From Humidesulfovibrio sp. (GTDB taxonomy: Bacteria > Desulfobacterota > Desulfovibrionia > Desulfovibrionales > Desulfovibrionaceae): DNA of 46,031 nt. Shown in pieces: positions 1,986 to 9,818 of the stretch. The stretch is from the NCBI RefSeq assembly GCF_030689645.1, contig NZ_JAUYFU010000082.1, positions 1 through 46,031 on the forward strand, given 5' to 3'. The notes beneath the pieces are model-generated. The model was not told the origin of the DNA. It worked only from the letters and a program-made list of their open reading frames with translations, and searched no databases. The position numbers and the translations under genes were made by a program. Each line of letters begins with the position of its first letter. The stretch's first letter is position 1.

Positions 1986-2144
1986 CTAGACCTTGCGGAT
2001 CTCCACGTGGCCCGGGGTGATGGACCGGATGTGCTGCTCGCGCTTGAGCTCCACGTCCAGAAGTTTGGGAGAGGAGAACAGCACTTCCTCTTTCTTGCCG
2101 TTGACGAGGACCAGCTGGTAGCTTTCGGGGGCCTTTTCGCTCAT
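1986..2144 (-). CDS. small conserved-looking protein, 52 residues
   Basis: The frame runs from ATG 2142-2144 to TAG 1986-1988 and encodes 52 residues beginning MSEKAPESYQLVLVNGKKEE and ending VEIRKV. A GGAGTGAAC ribosome binding site directly precedes the start. The alternating hydrophobic/charged pattern (QLVLVNGK, EVLFSS, HVEIRKV) suggests a small beta-rich fold; there is no signal peptide or membrane segment. Codon use with GC-rich third positions supports that it is real. The start lies 2 nt after the remnant stop of the decayed GNAT gene, so it was probably the last gene of the KamA cassette. I do not recognise the family. Confidence 0.66.
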   Translation of the reverse strand: MSEKAPESYQLVLVNGKKEEVLFSSPKLLDVELKREQHIRSITPGHVEIRKV

Positions 2145-2146
2145 GT

Positions 2147-2563
2147 TCACTCCGTTTGCGCCGTGTGGGCGCGTTTATGGTAAATGATCTTGTCGTCGCC
2201 TGCGGCGTAAAACGCCTTTGGTCGCACGCAGATGACGCAGCCATGCTTCTCGTGGAGCCTGCGGGTGGGCAGGGCTGCCCGCGTGAGGAGGTTTCGGCGC
2301 AGATGCCGCGCGCGCTCCGCGCAGCCCTGTGGGCTTCTGTCCGGGCCGCAACAGGCGCACTCGGCCAGTTTGGCAGCCGCCACAGCCGCTGCGTCCGGGG
2401 AGCGCCCTCTTCGGTCAAGACATAAAAATAACCGCTTGCGCCGCCCTTGGCAAGATGCACCTGTGCCGGCTCCCCGGCTACCGCTATCTCCCTGACGTTG
2501 CAGGAGCCTGTGGACTCCGCAAGCTTGCGGACGGCTGCGGCATCTCCCCCGCAGGACCATCAT
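2147..2563 (-). pseudogene. decayed GNAT acetyltransferase, multiple frameshifts
   Basis: No single frame gives a protein, but pieces of a GNAT enzyme appear in order in two alternating frames: MMVLRG (2563-2546), then DAAAVRKLAESTG up to GYFYVLTEEG (to 2404) in the other frame, then CACCGP (2359-2342), then ICAETSSRG (2304-2278), then PTRRLHEKHG and FYAAGDDKIIYHKR (2272-2171). Many GNAT proteins carry the same order: an (A/V)VR.L...TG start, GY.CYGP, ETSSR...(P)TR.FYE..G, and FY..GD..(I/V)IY.K. Only about 37 nt separate CCGP from ETSS where intact relatives have roughly 45 residues including the acetyl-CoA loop, so there is a deletion as well as frameshifts. The first shift falls in a run of five G. 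It follows the kamA-like and ATP-grasp genes. Known of the family: GNAT genes often neighbour aminomutase genes. Sequencing error alone would not explain the deletion. Confidence 0.7.
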
Positions 2564-2742
2564 GCGTGAGCGGCTGTCGTCTTGTGTTTCAATCGCGTTG
2601 GCGTGAACGGCGCGTGGCGCGGACGCAAAAACGCCTGGGCCACGCGCCGCTCCCTGCGTGTGCCTTGCTGGGCTGGCGGCGCGCCTTTCGGCACTGGGGC
2701 GCGCAGTACGGCGATGTCGAGCCCGTCGCTGCTTGAGGTCAC
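2560..2742 (-). other. possible GTG-start small ORF filling the gap after the ATP-grasp gene
   Basis: A GTG at 2740-2742 preceded by AAAGGGAGC opens a 60-codon frame ending TGA at 2560-2562, 14 nt after the ATP-grasp stop. The product (MTSSSDGLDIAVLRAPVPKG...) is rich in Arg, Ala and Pro and matches nothing I recognise. It may be the original start region of the decayed acetyltransferase or non-coding. It is listed because the ribosome binding site is good and the stretch holds no other candidate. Confidence 0.3.
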
Positions 2743-2756
2743 GCTCCCTTTCGCGC

Positions 2757-3764
2757 TCAGCTGCGCACCTTGCGCTCCTTGTCGGGGTTGAGGGGCAGCC
2801 GCTCAAGGGCCGACTGCACGATCATGCGCAGCAGGTCCTGGTAGGAGACGCCGTTCATTTCGCACAGGATGGGCAGGTCTGAGATGCTGGGGTTCAGGCC
2901 GGCCAGCGGGTTCACCTCAAGGAAGCTGGCCCGGCCCGCAGCGTCCAGCCGGATGTCCACCCGGCCCCCGTCGCGGCAGCCCAGCCCGCGCCAGACTTCC
3001 ATGGCCAGCTGCGCGGCCTCGGCGGCCTCCGGCCCTTCCACGGGCAGGTATTCCACCAAGGTCTCGAAGTTGGCTTTGTTGCTGTACGAGTAGGCGCCGG
3101 GCTCGGCCTGGCCGCAGAGGCGGACCTCCATGACTCCCAGTGGCCGCGCCAGCTCGCCCGTGCCCGCGATGCCCACGGTGAACTCCCGTCCAGGCAGGTA
3201 TTCCTCCACCAGCACGGGCTGTTTGAAGCGCTTCAGGAGCACCCGGCAGATGGCCGTGAGCTCCTTGCGGTCGCCCGCGCGCGAGGCCGCGCAGACGCCC
3301 TTGCCCGTGCCCTCGGCCACTGGCTTGGCGAACACGGGGTAGTGCAGGCGGACGCCCGCCACGTCCTTTTCCGTGCGCACCAGGGCGAAGTCCGGCGTGG
3401 GCAGGCCCAGGTCGCGCACCACGCGCTTGCAGGCCGCCTTGTCCAGGCACAGGGCCATGACCATCGGATCGGAGAAGGTGTAGGGGATTTGATACGCGTC
3501 GAGGAGCGCGGGCACCAGGGCCTCGCGCCCGGGGCCGTGCAGGCCTTCGGCGATGTTGAACACCAGATCCCAGCGGCTGCCTCCGGCCAGGGCGGACACA
3601 AGGGACTTGGCCGAGCCGATGGCCTCCACCTCGAAGCCCAGGGCCACGAGGCCCAGGCGCAGGGCCTCGATGGTGTCCTCCTTGTCGAACTCCGCGGTCT
3701 CCTCCTCGCTGTAGCCTTCGGCGAGGTATTCGGAGCGCAGATCATAAACCAGTCCAACGTTCAT
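2757..3764 (-). CDS. D-alanine-D-alanine ligase-like ATP-grasp enzyme
   Basis: The 335-residue product starts at the ATG overlapping the KamA stop (ATGA, 4 nt) and begins MNVGLVYDLRSEYLAEGYS. It shows the D-Ala-D-Ala ligase order: N-terminal Rossmann-like part with LVFNIAEGLHGPGRE (residues about 75-90), substrate-side ALCLDKAACKRVVRDLGLPTP, the ATP-grasp lid PVFAKPVAEGTGKGV, VLVEEYLPGREFTVGI, and the metal/active-site EVNPLAGLNPSISDLP near the C-terminus. In true Ddl the last motif is EVNT.PG.T; the AGLNPS/SDLP form marks the side family seen beside KamA-type genes. It likely ligates an amino acid in ATP-dependent fashion in the cytoplasm, possibly a beta-lysine product of the upstream enzyme; that substrate is inference. 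Cell-wall Ddl is less likely given the context. Confidence 0.85.
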   Translation of the reverse strand: MNVGLVYDLRSEYLAEGYSEEETAEFDKEDTIEALRLGLVALGFEVEAIGSAKSLVSALAGGSRWDLVFNIAEGLHGPGREALVPALLDAYQIPYTFSDPMVMALCLDKAACKRVVRDLGLPTPDFALVRTEKDVAGVRLHYPVFAKPVAEGTGKGVCAASRAGDRKELTAICRVLLKRFKQPVLVEEYLPGREFTVGIAGTGELARPLGVMEVRLCGQAEPGAYSYSNKANFETLVEYLPVEGPEAAEAAQLAMEVWRGLGCRDGGRVDIRLDAAGRASFLEVNPLAGLNPSISDLPILCEMNGVSYQDLLRMIVQSALERLPLNPDKERKVRS

Positions 3765-5086
3765 GCGGCCCCCTTGCTCATGGCGGGTTGCGCCGGGGCT
3801 TTTTGCGCCCCGGCCGGGTCCGGGTAGCGGTACACTCCGCCAGCGTAATTCCGGAGCACCAAGTCTGCGCCAGAATAGCCCAGGGTGTAGTCCGGCGCCA
3901 GGGGTATCTTGCCGCCGCCGCCTGGGGCGTCGATGACGAAGGTGGGCAGGGCATAGCCCGACAGCCTCCCCCGCAAGGCGCGCAGGATTTCCACCCCGCG
4001 CAGGGCCGGGGTGCGGAAGTGGGCCGAGCCGCTGATGGGGTCGCACTGATACAGGTAGTAAGGGCGCACGCGATAGGCCAGCAGGCCCTGGAGCATCCGT
4101 CCCATGACCTCTGGCTCGTCGTTGACGCCGGAGAGCAGCACGGTCTGGCTGCCCAGGGGAATGCCTGCGTCGGCCAGGCGGGCGCAAGCCTTGCGGGTGT
4201 CTTCCGTCAGTTCGCCCGGATGGGTGAAGTGCAGGCTCATCCACAGGGGATGATGCTTTTTCAGCATGCGCGCGAGATCTGTTGTGACGCGCATGGGCAG
4301 AACAGCCGGAACCTTGGTGCCGATGCGCACGATCTGCACGTGCTTGATGGCGCGCAGCCGCGTAAGCAGCCAGTCCAGGGCCTCGTCGGGCATGGTGAGC
4401 GGGTCGCCGCCGGAGAGCAGCACGTCCTGCACCGCCGGGGTGCGGGAGATGTAGTCGAGCCCCTGCTCCCAGCGCTGGCGCAGGTGCTCCAGTCCGCCAC
4501 CGCCGATCTGCTGGCCGCCCATCCCGCGCGAGCGCGTGCAATAGCGGCAGTAGGTGGAGCAGAAGTCCGTTGTCAGAAACAGCACGCGGTTGGGGTAGCG
4601 GTGCACCAGGCCGGGCACCGGGGAGTGGCCGTCCTCGCCCAGGGGGTCGTCGGCCTCGCCAGTGGTTCGCACGGCCTCCCGGCAGGAAGGCAGCACCATG
4701 CGCCGCAGGGGCTGCTGCGGGTTCTTCGGGTCCAGCAGGCGGGCGTAATAGGGCGTCACCGCCAGGGGCAGGGAGGAGCGCGTCAGGCCGATGGCGCTGG
4801 TCTCGGCCTCGGAGAGCTCAAGAATCCGCGCGGCGTCTTCAAGACAGGTGATGCGGTGGGAGAGCTGCCAGCGCCAGTCGACCCATTCGCGCCGCGTGGC
4901 GCCGGGGAAGTGGCGGTGCAGGAAGTCGAGCAGGGGTGTCGGGTGAAAGTCGGCTTGGGCTTTCGGGACAGGGGGGAAAAGGCGAGTCGGTGAGGGGGGC
5001 TCTTCAGGGTCGCGGTCGGTTTCCTGGCCGTCAAGGCCGCAATCCGGAGGTTCCGCTTCGCCCGAGTCCAGAATGGCGGTGTCCAT
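3761..5086 (-). CDS. KamA-family radical SAM lysine 2,3-aminomutase-like protein
   Basis: The 441-residue product carries the radical SAM cluster motif CSTYCRYC (CxxxCxxC) at about residues 172-179, followed by LSGGDPLT. The substrate-binding Asp of lysine 2,3-aminomutase is present in YQCDPISGSAHFRTP, and the second Asp plus the PLP-binding Lys are present in IDAPGGGGKIPL with the usual seven-residue spacing. All residues for the SAM/PLP-dependent conversion of L-lysine to beta-lysine are therefore visible. The N-terminal 45 residues are acidic and Pro-rich, probably disordered. An AGGA site precedes ATG 5084-5086. The stop overlaps the start of the ATP-grasp gene, so the two are translationally coupled. 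In other bacteria KamA/AblA with a GNAT (AblB) makes the osmolyte N-epsilon-acetyl-beta-lysine; here the GNAT is broken, so the end product is open. Confidence 0.88.
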   Translation of the reverse strand: MDTAILDSGEAEPPDCGLDGQETDRDPEEPPSPTRLFPPVPKAQADFHPTPLLDFLHRHFPGATRREWVDWRWQLSHRITCLEDAARILELSEAETSAIGLTRSSLPLAVTPYYARLLDPKNPQQPLRRMVLPSCREAVRTTGEADDPLGEDGHSPVPGLVHRYPNRVLFLTTDFCSTYCRYCTRSRGMGGQQIGGGGLEHLRQRWEQGLDYISRTPAVQDVLLSGGDPLTMPDEALDWLLTRLRAIKHVQIVRIGTKVPAVLPMRVTTDLARMLKKHHPLWMSLHFTHPGELTEDTRKACARLADAGIPLGSQTVLLSGVNDEPEVMGRMLQGLLAYRVRPYYLYQCDPISGSAHFRTPALRGVEILRALRGRLSGYALPTFVIDAPGGGGKIPLAPDYTLGYSGADLVLRNYAGGVYRYPDPAGAQKAPAQPAMSKGAA

Positions 5087-5113: not shown

Positions 5114-5527
5114 TCATTTCTTTTTCTTGTCCGCGCCGGTCTGCTTCACCGCGCCGCCCGCGCCCGGCGAGTCGTCGTCCGGGCTCACGATGCGGTAATC
5201 AAGCAGGCGGACAGTGCGGTACTCCTGGTCTTGGCGAATGACAAGCCCCTTGGCCTGGATGTGCCTGCCTGCAAAGGGGGTGAGGTCCAGCCCCTGCACC
5301 AGACAGTAGCCTTGCGCGTCCTTGATGAACACCTTGTCCAACCCGACGGTGATGCGTCCGGCGATCTCAATGGGTTCGCCCGCCGGAGCGGCATCGGCCT
5401 TGGCGGCGGATTTTTGTGGCTGCGCCGCGTGTGCCGGGCCAGGGGACGCCGGGCTGGCGACGAAGAGCGCGGCCAGAAGGAGGAATGATGCGGCATTTTT
5501 GCAAAGGCTTGGCGCAGTGCTGCGCAT
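5114..5527 (-). CDS. exported small protein of unknown function
   Basis: The 137-residue product has a signal peptide (MRSTAPSLCKNAASFLLLAALFVASPASPGPAHA, cleavage expected after AHA). The mature part contains one beta-rich module: EIAGRITVGLDKVFIKDAQGYCLVQGLDL, HIQAKGLVIRQDQEYRTVRLLDYRIV. The pattern G-x-I-x-V..D-x-G..Y.L.G..L..F.G..I.A.G.(V) looks like an OB-fold protein of the kind annotated in exported proteins of sulfate reducers. The C-terminus is a charged KKKK tail. An AGGAG site precedes the ATG. It lies 27 nt upstream of the KamA gene on the same strand, so co-transcription is likely, but a functional link is not shown. I cannot assign a function. Confidence 0.72.
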   Translation of the reverse strand: MRSTAPSLCKNAASFLLLAALFVASPASPGPAHAAQPQKSAAKADAAPAGEPIEIAGRITVGLDKVFIKDAQGYCLVQGLDLTPFAGRHIQAKGLVIRQDQEYRTVRLLDYRIVSPDDDSPGAGGAVKQTGADKKKK

Positions 5528-6332: not shown

Positions 6333-9300
6333 GTGCAGGACCTGGGCGCACATTCTCCGTTGCGTCCTAAAGGGGCCGCTGGTGGCCGGGCGAAATCGTT
6401 CCGGCTGCTGGCGGCTTTTTTTCTGGCGCTTTCTCTGGGCAGTCTCGCCCCAACGGCATTCGCCCAGACCGCCCCACTGGTCATCGCCTGTCCCGACGAT
6501 TTTCCTCCTTACTCCTACCGCAACGCCCAAGGGGAGGCCGCTGGCCTTCTGCCCGACTACTGGCGACTTTACGCCCGCCGGACGGGTCAAGAGGTGGAGC
6601 TGCGCCTAGCCCATAGGGCAGAGGCCCTGCGGATGGTGGAGGAGAGCCGCGCCGACGCCTACGCAGGCCCGCCTCTGGCCCAGGAGCAGCAGTCTGCGGG
6701 CCAATCAAGCTCCCCGGAAGCCTTCGCCTGGACGCGGCCGCTGCTGGATCAGGGCATTGGCCTGTTCATCGTGGCGGATCAGGCCGTCCGGCAGGGTGTC
6801 GGAACGGGTCAGTCTCTGGAATCGGCCCGGTTGAGCGCCGGACTGGTTGGGGACGATTCTGCTGCGACCATTCTTGCCGCCACCTTTCCCAATCTGAAGC
6901 AAAGGCTTTACCCGGACCTGGATTCCCTGGCCGCTGCCCTGGCCCTTGGGCAGGTGCGCGTGGTCGCGGGACCTGTGTTGCCGGTTCAGCATCGGCTGCG
7001 GGCCTTGGGCGGGGCCGAGCGCTTTGTGCTGGTGCGGCGCTTTCCCGGCACAGCGCTGCATGCGGCGGTCCGCCGGGAGGATCAGACTCTTCTGGCGCGG
7101 CTCAACGACGGGCTGCAATCCCTGGCTTCAGAAGACATCCAGGCCTTGGAGGAACGCTACGCCAAGCCCCCGACGGCGTTGCCGGGTTGGCTGGTCGGCG
7201 TGCTTGTGGGCATCGTGGCCCTTTGCCTCAGCCTTTTGGTGCTGGTCCGCGCGCGCCGGGTGCGCCGCGCCGCCGAGGCGCGCAGCCGCGAGACCGACCT
7301 TCTGCGCGATAACCTGCTGTCTGAGATGGCCCGCCACCGCAAAACCCAGGATCTTCTCGTCTCGGCCGTTGAGCAATCGCCTTCGGGCATCATCGTCGCC
7401 TACGGCGATGGCGTCACTCCGCCACTCTTCAACTCCATGGCAATGAAGATCCTAGGTCTGGATGCGCCACTGGTTTTGGATGATTTCGCCCATGATTGGC
7501 CCTGGCGGGTGTACACGCCCACCGGGAGATTCGTTCCTGCTGAGAACGTGCCTCTGTTTGCGGCCCTGCATCGTGGGGAGACAGTGCCTGGGAGCGAGTA
7601 TCGTGTTGTGTTCGCCGATGGCTCCGAGCGCTGGATTTGGGCAAGCGCCGCGCCCGTGCGAGATTCTCAGGGCGTGGTGCGCGGAGGGGTAAGCGTTTTT
7701 CAAGACATAACCACTTCGCGACAGGCCGAGCGTGATCTGGCCCGCTTCAAATTCTTCATCGAGGCCGGCGTGGAAGAGGTCTACCTGGTCCGGCCCAACG
7801 GCACCCTGGCGTATGTCAACGAGGCCGTTGCGCGCAGCCTGGGCCATGCCCGCCAAGAGATCTTGGATGCCCATCTCTCCGATATCGCCCCGGCCTTTAC
7901 GCCAGAAGAAGTCTACCGTTTGCTGAATGTCGTGCGCCAGGGGCCCTATACCTTTGACACCGTGCAGTACACCCGCGACGGCAGGCCTGTGCTGAAGGAA
8001 ATCAAGGCCTTCTACATGCGGTTCGGCGACGAGGAATACATCAGCGCCTTTGGGCGCGACATCACTGAGAAGAAGCGGCTGGAGCTTGAACTGGGAAGAA
8101 CGCAGGCCTTGTTCGAGGCCTCACTCACCCAGGCTCCATGGGGCATCATCATTGGCGACGCCGCAACGGGCCGGGTAAGCATCGCCAACCCAGCCGCCGC
8201 CGCCATGCTCGGAGTGGAGCCGGAGATCCTGGTGGGCGTGGACGTCGATGGCACCCTACCCATCTGGCTTTTTCTGGATGAAAACGGTCAGGAGGTGACC
8301 CCCGGCGAGACGCCTCTTTCACGCGCGCTGACCCTGGGAGAGCAGACGCGCGACCAGGAGGTGCGCTTCTTCCTGGGCGATGGCCCGGAGCGCTGGCTTC
8401 TGGCCAACGCCTCGCCGGTGCGCAACGCGGATGGAGCCATCGTTGCGGCCATCATGGTCATGGCCGACATCACCGGGCGCAAGCGCATGGAAAATCAGCT
8501 GGTGTTCAAGGCTCTGCACGATTCCCTCACCGGCTTGCCCAATCGCGCTCTGTGCCTGGAGAGCATCCAGCAGACGCTGGAGCGCTCGCGGTTGCAGGGA
8601 CAGCCCTTTGCCGTGGCCTTTGTGGATCTGGACCGCTTCAAGATTCTGAACGACAGCCTGGGGCATTCCTTTGGCGACCGCGTATTGATCGAGGCAGCGC
8701 AGCGTCTTGTTCACGGCCTTGGCCGACTGGGCAGCGTGTGTCGCTTTGGCGGGGATGAATTTGTGCTCCTGGTGGACCGCGCAGACAGCGCCGAGGCCGC
8801 GCAGGATGCGTTGCGCGAGGCTCTGGAGTCCCTCGGTCAGCCCATGAACGTGGACGGCCAGGAGGTGCGCCTGACCGCAAGCGTGGGAGTGGTGCTGGGG
8901 CCGGCCGAGGAGGCTCTGACCGCCGGGAATGTGCTGCAGAACGCGGATTTGGCCATGCACCGCGCCAAGGACACGGGCCGCGACCGCATGCGGCTGTTCC
9001 ACCCCGGCATGCTGCGCCGGGCCCAGGAACTCATGTCCCTTGACGCCGACATGCGCCGGGGGTTGGAGCGCAAGGAATTTCTGGTCTATTATCAGCCCAT
9101 CATGTCCGCCGACGGGACCCGGATACTCGGCGTTGAGGCCCTGGCCCGCTGGCAGAGTTCCACCCGCGGTCTGGTGACCCCGCACGCCTTCATCTCCCAC
9201 GCGGAGGAGTCCGGGCTCATCGTGCCCCTGGGCGAGCAGGTGTTGCGCATGGCCTGCCGCGAAATGACGGACCTGCGCAAGCGCTTCGCCTCGGCCCGCC

Positions 9301-9818
9301 GCATGTCGCTGGCCGTGAACCTTTCCGCCCGGCAGTTCGCTCAGCCGGACATCGTGGACACCGTGCGCCAGGTGCTGCGCGAAGTGGGCCTGCCTCCGGC
9401 CCTGCTGAAGCTGGAGCTCACGGAGTCCGCGCTCATGGGCGACCCGGAGAGCGCCTTGCTGGCCATGCGCCGTCTTAAAGCCCTTGGCGTCTCCCTGGCC
9501 ATCGACGATTTCGGCACCGGCTATTCCTCCCTTGCCTACCTGCAACGTTTTCCCGTGGATGTGCTCAAGATCGACCGCTCCTTTGTGCGCGACCTGCCTC
9601 GCGCCGACGCCGACAGCCGCGCCCTGGTGGGAGCCATCGCCGCCTTGGCGGGCAGCCTGCGCCTGACAATGGTGGCCGAGGGCGTGGAGACCCGCGAACA
9701 GCTTGATATGCTGGTGGGGCTGGGCTGCGACGCCATGCAGGGCTTCTTCTTCCATCCTGCTTTGCGCCTTGACGAGCTTGCCGACTTGCTGGCCCGGTTC
9801 GACGCTCAGGACGCGTAG
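6333..9818 (+). CDS. PBP-PAS-PAS-PAS-GGDEF-EAL c-di-GMP signalling protein
   Basis: The 1161-residue product uses a GTG start 7 nt after the lipoprotein stop. Order: signal peptide (residues 1-44, ending AFA), a bacterial solute-binding family 3 type sensor (about 47-280, starting APLVIACPDDFPPYSY), one membrane helix (about 284-308), three PAS domains (about 340-465, 469-585, 589-715), GGDEF (about 722-890) and EAL (about 905-1160). The cyclase motif is intact (RFGGDEF) but the upstream inhibitory-site position reads RLGS rather than RxxD. The phosphodiesterase side has VEALARW, DDFGTGYSSL and VAEGVETREQ, so catalytic residues look complete. It would sense a periplasmic amino acid-like ligand and set cytoplasmic c-di-GMP. 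Which activity dominates cannot be read from sequence. Confidence 0.92.
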   Translation: MQDLGAHSPLRPKGAAGGRAKSFRLLAAFFLALSLGSLAPTAFAQTAPLVIACPDDFPPYSYRNAQGEAAGLLPDYWRLYARRTGQEVELRLAHRAEALRMVEESRADAYAGPPLAQEQQSAGQSSSPEAFAWTRPLLDQGIGLFIVADQAVRQGVGTGQSLESARLSAGLVGDDSAATILAATFPNLKQRLYPDLDSLAAALALGQVRVVAGPVLPVQHRLRALGGAERFVLVRRFPGTALHAAVRREDQTLLARLNDGLQSLASEDIQALEERYAKPPTALPGWLVGVLVGIVALCLSLLVLVRARRVRRAAEARSRETDLLRDNLLSEMARHRKTQDLLVSAVEQSPSGIIVAYGDGVTPPLFNSMAMKILGLDAPLVLDDFAHDWPWRVYTPTGRFVPAENVPLFAALHRGETVPGSEYRVVFADGSERWIWASAAPVRDSQGVVRGGVSVFQDITTSRQAERDLARFKFFIEAGVEEVYLVRPNGTLAYVNEAVARSLGHARQEILDAHLSDIAPAFTPEEVYRLLNVVRQGPYTFDTVQYTRDGRPVLKEIKAFYMRFGDEEYISAFGRDITEKKRLELELGRTQALFEASLTQAPWGIIIGDAATGRVSIANPAAAAMLGVEPEILVGVDVDGTLPIWLFLDENGQEVTPGETPLSRALTLGEQTRDQEVRFFLGDGPERWLLANASPVRNADGAIVAAIMVMADITGRKRMENQLVFKALHDSLTGLPNRALCLESIQQTLERSRLQGQPFAVAFVDLDRFKILNDSLGHSFGDRVLIEAAQRLVHGLGRLGSVCRFGGDEFVLLVDRADSAEAAQDALREALESLGQPMNVDGQEVRLTASVGVVLGPAEEALTAGNVLQNADLAMHRAKDTGRDRMRLFHPGMLRRAQELMSLDADMRRGLERKEFLVYYQPIMSADGTRILGVEALARWQSSTRGLVTPHAFISHAEESGLIVPLGEQVLRMACREMTDLRKRFASARRMSLAVNLSARQFAQPDIVDTVRQVLREVGLPPALLKLELTESALMGDPESALLAMRRLKALGVSLAIDDFGTGYSSLAYLQRFPVDVLKIDRSFVRDLPRADADSRALVGAIAALAGSLRLTMVAEGVETREQLDMLVGLGCDAMQGFFFHPALRLDELADLLARFDAQDA

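Follow-up and report, generated by a model that had tools for sequence, protein, structure and literature searches.

Loss of a fused ATP-grasp ligase-acetyltransferase gene from a KamA cassette and a promoter-like element that may have outlived it

Results

Genes and features of the locus

The window, i.e. the whole stretch of DNA analysed here, is a contig of 46,031 nucleotides from a member of a group of sulfate-reducing bacteria. Its features relevant to this work are listed below, with G101 and G108 denoting two genus relatives in which the gene decayed here is intact.

5114..5527, minus strand: up137, the gene 5' of KamA (tblastn of loci)
3761..5086, minus strand: KamA-family radical SAM aminomutase, intact, 441 aa (profile matches, structure alignment)
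2757..3764, minus strand: GRASP1, intact D-Ala-D-Ala-ligase-like ATP-grasp ligase (PF07478, 9.2e-25)
2599..2754, minus strand: remnant of the GRASP2 N-terminus, matching G101 fusion residues 9-65 at 42% identity (tblastn, E 1.8e-8 with the 621-bp stretch alone as search space)
2407..2556, minus strand: GNAT remnant block 1, G101 residues 373-422 (52% identity, E 2.2e-10; blastn 117/158 to G108)
2421..2454, minus strand: promoter-like island (TTGCCA at 2453-2448, 17 nt, TATTTT at 2430-2425)
2147..2356, minus strand: GNAT remnant block 2, reaching the C-terminus (blastn 158/213 to G108)
2158..2172, minus strand: short leader hairpin GCGCC/GGCGC, just 5' of the small54 ribosome-binding site (folding, alignment)
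1986..2144, minus strand: small54, a conserved small protein (52 aa with ATG as the start, 54 aa with an in-frame GTG)

Reading along the minus strand, KamA (5086-3761) is followed by GRASP1 (3764-2757), by a stretch from 2756 to 2147 that contains no recognisable intact gene, by small54 (2144-1986) and then by pilin-like genes. The start of GRASP1 and the stop of KamA overlap by ATGA. In genus members that have no cassette at this place up137 lies directly 5' of small54, as seen by tblastn of the loci. Elsewhere in the window, positions 6333-9815 encode a large sensor with solute-binding, PAS, GGDEF and EAL domains.

KamA scores above the cut-off of TIGR00238 and fails that of TIGR03820 (lysine 2,3-aminomutase; 459.3 bits vs 525.4). 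It matches the lysine 2,3-aminomutase structure 2a5h with an E value of 2.2e-124, and in the alignment to this structure the cluster motif CxxxCxxC is present as CSTYCRYC, the PLP lysine motif GGGGK is kept within DAPGGGGK, and two Asp-bearing motifs, YQCD and VxDAPGGGGK, are retained; the Asp residues of YQCD and VxDAP are presumably those that bind lysine. GRASP1 reaches 87.8 bits with PF07478 (cut-off 24), stays below the curated cut-off in the best 25 of 50 matching NCBIfam families (top match 147.1 vs 243 bits) and is ~30-34% identical to other Ddl-like proteins in the genus.

The decayed gene encoded a ligase-acetyltransferase fusion

In genus relatives the intact gene after GRASP1 encodes a single fusion protein, GRASP2-GNAT (541 aa in G101), in which a second D-Ala-D-Ala-ligase-like ATP-grasp domain is followed by a GNAT domain in the C-terminal half. 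GRASP2, too, is nearest to the D-Ala-D-Ala ligase family (PF07478 above cut-off). The G101 fusion protein exceeds the cut-offs of PF00583 and PF13508 (47.8 and 48.3 bits), and the intact GNAT has sub-cut-off matches only in NCBIfam, rimI being the best.

An earlier note on this DNA had described a decayed acetyltransferase gene in the KamA cassette. The decay is real, as alignment with the intact genes of G101 and G108 places the pieces in two frames. Their similarity to GNAT was also borne out, with 52% identity to the G101 protein in block 1 and 60% in block 2 (2150-2278, minus strand, against residues 498-541). When the remnant was compared with two intact genes by blastn, the GNAT blocks matched G108 with E values of 3e-32 and 1e-23, so that the resemblance goes beyond chance. 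The gene was, however, not the stand-alone acetyltransferase that had been assumed: its counterpart in the relatives is the GRASP2-GNAT fusion, and the remnant is longer than thought and includes the GRASP2 N-terminus.

The strong GNAT pieces lie in two frames with one frame switch, whereas the at least four alternations claimed before are obtained if one also counts the weak pieces MMVLRG and LAECACCGP, which were recognised by eye in the translations (four alternations in our count). The open reading frames over the GNAT remnant gave no GNAT match in Pfam, and no frame is continuous. We agree with the earlier reading that the acetyl-CoA loop region is deleted, since the acetyl-CoA-binding stretch Q-x-x-G-x-G/A, which we take to be GNAT motif A, is missing from the remnant in comparison with the intact relatives. 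About 55 codons of the GRASP2 share are kept, and fusion residues ~66 to 372, i.e. ~300 codons or about 900 bp, are missing. A second copy of GRASP2-GNAT was found neither in the window genome (G000) nor in G099.

Three related genomes lack GRASP2-GNAT

Among the 15 genus genomes searched, KamA with a close GRASP1 occurs in eight and KamA is absent from seven. GRASP2-GNAT is present in five of the eight cassette-bearing genomes and absent from three, namely the window genome, G099 and G102 (hereafter the losers), and its loss is thus not peculiar to the window genome. G102 is 84% complete, yet its locus is contiguous from GRASP1 through small54. Little of GRASP2-GNAT is recognisable in G102 and G099 beyond the short block that is also best kept in the window. 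A further candidate for decay, G100, in which KamA and GRASP2 were each matched in two pieces, was rejected: the breaks are N runs (1519-1550 and 3515-3582 of locus L035, a metagenome-derived record), i.e. assembly gaps that interrupt KamA and GRASP2-GNAT.

An rpoB tree, for which no sequence was obtained from G103 and G104 and only a partial one from G102 (32% of columns), unites the three losers with support of 95/98 and places them as sister to G108, G101 and G061 (92/93 for the latter group). The loser clade is also supported by KamA alone (90/91) and by codon positions 1+2 of KamA and GRASP1 combined (96/95); it is not recovered with confidence from GRASP1 alone (35/37). A tree of small54 and the pilin leaves G103 unplaced, and the pilin frames of G101, G061 and G107 are probably wrong, having long branches. 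The simplest account of these trees would be one loss of GRASP2-GNAT in the common ancestor of the three losers, separate losses being the alternative.

The full set occurs in several phyla: 26 of 41 fetched loci, some of them from Bacteroidota, Krumholzibacteriota or Alphaproteobacteria, contain KamA, GRASP1, GRASP2 and GNAT, the last two being either fused or separate. GRASP1 stands alone in ten loci, five of which are near a contig end (L049, L061, L062, L063, L069), KamA and GRASP1 are the only members in two (L034, which is G102, and L070, an Elusimicrobia record), and three loci are partial (L050, L053, L066). GRASP1 without the later genes therefore occurs elsewhere too. A search of 99 genomes of the family found a GRASP1 with at least 51% identity in 31. 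Six alphaproteobacterial loci (L057, L060, L062, L063, L064, L071) carry GRASP1 orthologs of 53-55% identity whose fetched flanks contain no KamA, GRASP2 or GNAT, and thus GRASP1 probably has a separate use there.

KamA and GRASP1 remain under constraint

The dN/dS values of KamA are 0.29-0.38 in the losers and 0.23-0.32 in the intact genomes, those of GRASP1 0.215-0.226 and 0.15-0.34, respectively. As the loser values for KamA go up to 0.38, compared with at most 0.32 in intact genomes, some relaxation of KamA is possible, and this slight increase speaks against a perfectly unchanged KamA role. At near-invariant columns, defined as identical in 97% or more of the orthologs, the losers deviate at 2 of 94 positions in KamA (54 orthologs; E251Q in the window and G102, L331M in the window) and at 1 of 60 in GRASP1 (64 orthologs; F27L in G099). 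D349 and D386 of KamA are near-invariant and retained in the losers.

Changes in the remnant were counted at sites where G108, G101 and G061 agree. At codon positions 1+2 the window-specific changes amount to 26/137 in the remnant vs 61/1310 in KamA and GRASP1 (p = 2e-8), and within the remnant positions 1+2 do not differ from position 3 (11/40; p = 0.27), indicating that the remnant evolves without protein constraint and KamA and GRASP1 with it. These results support purifying selection on KamA and GRASP1 in the three loser species and, with the ATGA overlap, uphold the earlier description of the two partner genes as intact and coupled. The C-terminal GNAT block is fairly well kept in the window (17 changes at 101 sites).

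A promoter-like island upstream of small54

What the earlier note had missed is the reason for the survival of fragments: the best-preserved piece of the remnant is shaped like a promoter for the next gene. This island of ~34 bp (TTGCCA-N17-TATTTT) sits within the former GNAT codons LAKGGASGYFY and is the remnant common to all three losers, where it reads CTTGCCAA, followed by the spacer and TATTTT or TACTTT. It agrees with the sigma-70 consensus at 9 of 12 bases with a spacer of 17 and is the sole sigma-70-like site in 1900-2800, where shuffled sequences yield 0.1 on average. In the window the island has one change at 26 comparable sites vs 37 at 177 sites elsewhere in the two GNAT blocks (p = 0.024); the good conservation of the C-terminal block is not accounted for by the promoter reading.

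small54 is found in all 15 genus genomes and has no Pfam match. A loose form of the element lies 125-410 bp before its ATG in each of the 13 genus genomes with readable upstream DNA, G106 and G107 being omitted from all leader counts since small54 is at the contig start there. In seven of these genomes (G029, G100, G083, G098, G104, G105, G103) the element is present without a cassette upstream, that of G103 being weak (TACGTT). A strict pattern, CTTG[AC]C-N16-18-TAnnnT no more than 450 bp 5' of small54, which was written after the site had been seen, matches 11 of the 13 genus leaders (G061 and G083 miss it) and 3 of 12 leaders outside the genus, has no match in the remaining 133,372 bases of these loci, counting both strands, and occurs twice in the 46-kb window, once as the island. 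In other genera small54 has its own CTTGACC promoter nearby or lies directly behind another gene, which, judged by eye, we take to be bactofilin-like. A search of 1900-2800 against Rfam gave no match. From its position, hexamers, spacing and conservation we infer that the island is a sigma-70 type promoter driving small54.

Just past the island (~2413-2420, minus strand) all three losers share CTTGACCG, which is absent from the intact GNAT genes of G101, G108, G061 and G029 and may be either a second -35-like hexamer or a sign of shared descent.

The hairpin close to the small54 ribosome-binding site is found at the equivalent place in 13 of 13 leaders with a mean z of -2.6 against mononucleotide shuffles, being weak in G029 (z -0.5) and G083 (z -0.9). 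In the alignment 89.2% of cells are paired, with a covariation score of 0.295; each of these values is reached by 4/500 shuffles and both exceed all six slid versions. The number of cells changed on both sides is reached by 29/500 shuffles, and the pairs with two-sided change as well as the further pair types are both reached by 239/500. As two of the five measures are thus no better than shuffles, support for the hairpin is moderate.

Origin of the island

The element falls within the intact GNAT codons HLAKGxASGYF in G101 and G108 and, in weaker form, in G061, and as a similar motif is present in GNAT proteins of distant phyla the protein motif is probably older. Outside the hexamers, six cassette-free leaders match GNAT codons above position permutations, with z = 5.4 against the GNAT genes of G101, G108 and G061, which have small54 downstream, and z = 3.9 against those of G029 and G100, which do not (parts of the latter: 1.8 upstream, 2.0 spacer, 3.1 downstream). 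Counting the hexamers, 36 of 42 bases are identical between the G105 leader and the window remnant. These matches favour a GNAT fossil at these loci. On this basis the small54 promoter of the whole genus may have been born as GNAT codons LAKGxASGYF, been recruited under an upstream cassette, and survived as a 34-bp fossil after the ligase-acetyltransferase was lost or the cassette was lost or moved, a history to which we would give nearly even odds.

Alternatively, the small54 promoter could be old and independent, the cassette having arrived upstream of it and the GNAT motif L-x-K-x5-G-Y-x-F resembling it by convergence. Intact GNAT genes far from small54 are promoter-like as well, and CTTGACC promoters of a similar kind precede small54 in other genera (the 3 of 12 strict matches above). 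In a codon-choice test the GNAT genes with small54 downstream (n = 3) agree with the consensus at 9, 8 and 7 of 12 bases and those without a known small54 downstream (n = 13) at 5-9; the small54-linked genes are, contrary to expectation, not more promoter-like, so that codon choice gives no support to a fossil. Convergence is weakened by the matches of cassette-free leaders to GNAT codons outside the hexamers and by the closeness of G105 to the window remnant, and we regard it as a serious, if doubtful, contender. It is quite improbable that the island was kept as a terminator or repressor site instead of a promoter. Several leaders do contain an inverted repeat, CTTGCC-N8-GGCAAG, followed by a T-rich stretch, but this repeat is perfect in none of the three losers and disrupted in G103, the island is not listed by a terminator scan of the window, and a terminator inside the intact coding gene of G101 and G108, where the same sequence occurs, would cut that gene short. 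Even with a GNAT fossil as the tentative origin, more than one order of losses is conceivable, since G103 has the element without any cassette: in this genome (locus L113, 83% complete) KamA and a close GRASP1 were not found, up137 adjoins small54, and the leader contains a weak GNAT-like copy of the island and a stretch resembling the GNAT 3' end.

Discussion

The reading that we prefer, with a probability of roughly 0.7, is that a KamA - GRASP1 - GRASP2-GNAT cassette lost its last gene in one clade, that the shortened pathway was kept, and that the small54 promoter outlived the GNAT gene. The cassette would formerly have stood between up137 and small54. KamA is predicted to convert L-lysine to beta-lysine and GRASP1 to form an amide bond to the resulting amino acid; to judge by gene order and families, GRASP2-GNAT would once have extended and acetylated this product. 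After loss of GRASP2-GNAT in the common ancestor of the window genome, G102 and G099, the gene would have eroded, as shown for the window, with KamA and GRASP1 staying under selection and yielding a product that would now lack the second ligation and the acetylation. The island promoter would have overlapped the living GNAT codons, outlived the gene, and would now drive small54, with the hairpin before the ribosome-binding site.

The earlier note had proposed that loss of the last step changed the end product. The dead acetyltransferase and the constrained partner genes agree with this proposal, but the second ATP-grasp ligase was lost too, so two pathway steps would be missing, not one, and the end product is predicted from the genes. 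A loss of the final acetylation only, with the pathway now ending at the ATP-grasp product, would fit the intact, constrained pair of KamA and one ATP-grasp gene beside a dead GNAT. It is nevertheless unlikely, as the second ATP-grasp domain belongs to the same gene, which is a fusion in the five genus relatives that have it, and is gone as well, its N-terminal remnant being still readable in the window. That the whole cassette is dying, with KamA and GRASP1 lagging behind and doing nothing, could be argued from the seven of 15 genus genomes without KamA and from the slightly raised KamA dN/dS of the losers. Yet G099 and G102 hold full-length KamA and GRASP1 with little GRASP2-GNAT recognisable, dN/dS is 0.22-0.38, and the losers deviate at just three near-invariant columns (2/94 and 1/60), and we give this idea a small chance. 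Since KamA and GRASP1 are intact and under purifying selection, a working shortened pathway is the likeliest state. The window belongs to a 111-contig draft assembly, which might raise the question of a sequencing or assembly error, but about 900 bp are missing, all codon positions carry substitutions and GRASP2-GNAT is absent from two further genomes as well, so that a base-calling error is very unlikely and the chance of an artefact of either kind negligible.

The AblA/AblB route leads to N-epsilon-acetyl-beta-lysine, an osmolyte of methanogens, and is proposed, in passages of PMC3543383, for Pelobacter carbinolicus. The locus resembles this system in that a GNAT acetyltransferase is encoded close to a lysine 2,3-aminomutase-like protein, with the Asp motifs kept in KamA. 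In contrast to it, two ATP-grasp ligases lie between KamA and GNAT, the GNAT of the genus is fused to GRASP2 whereas AblB is a stand-alone GNAT beside AblA, and in the window KamA stays under the AblA model cut-off and the acetyltransferase is dead. Compared with this route, a peptide-like compound may have been the former product here instead of acetyl-beta-lysine, to judge by the two ligases that lie between KamA and GNAT. The nearest named family of both GRASP1 and GRASP2 is the D-Ala-D-Ala ligases (Ddl, Van), although GRASP1 stays below the cut-offs among the NCBIfam matches listed. Osmolyte genes of the N-acetylglutaminylglutamine synthetase type presumably combine GNAT and ATP-grasp in one protein, as GRASP2-GNAT does, with what we take to be a different domain order, and to our knowledge that system includes no KamA. 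A 2009 survey by Iyer and co-workers reportedly predicted neighbourhoods of ATP-grasp, GNAT and modified amino acids and may mention an aminomutase with ATP-grasp genes; we know of no statement in it on a loss or a promoter. No title or abstract opening among the literature matches listed was concerned with the cassette or the island promoter.

Promoters inside an upstream coding gene are common in bacterial operons, and the island resembles them where it lies in upstream-gene codons, i.e. in G101, G108 and, weaker, G061. It differs from them in persisting after decay of its host gene in three species. What appears to be new here is an island common to the losers, with like elements upstream of small54 throughout the genus.

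The locus would thus represent a conserved pathway shortened from its end, with the first enzymes remaining under selection, and species without the later steps allow a direct test of the activity of KamA and GRASP1. It also appears to contain a regulatory element saved from a decaying gene, and the stages are present in one genus, from the intact gene through the gene in pieces to the gene gone with the element left. The best-conserved fragment of a pseudogene is, accordingly, not necessarily kept for its protein.
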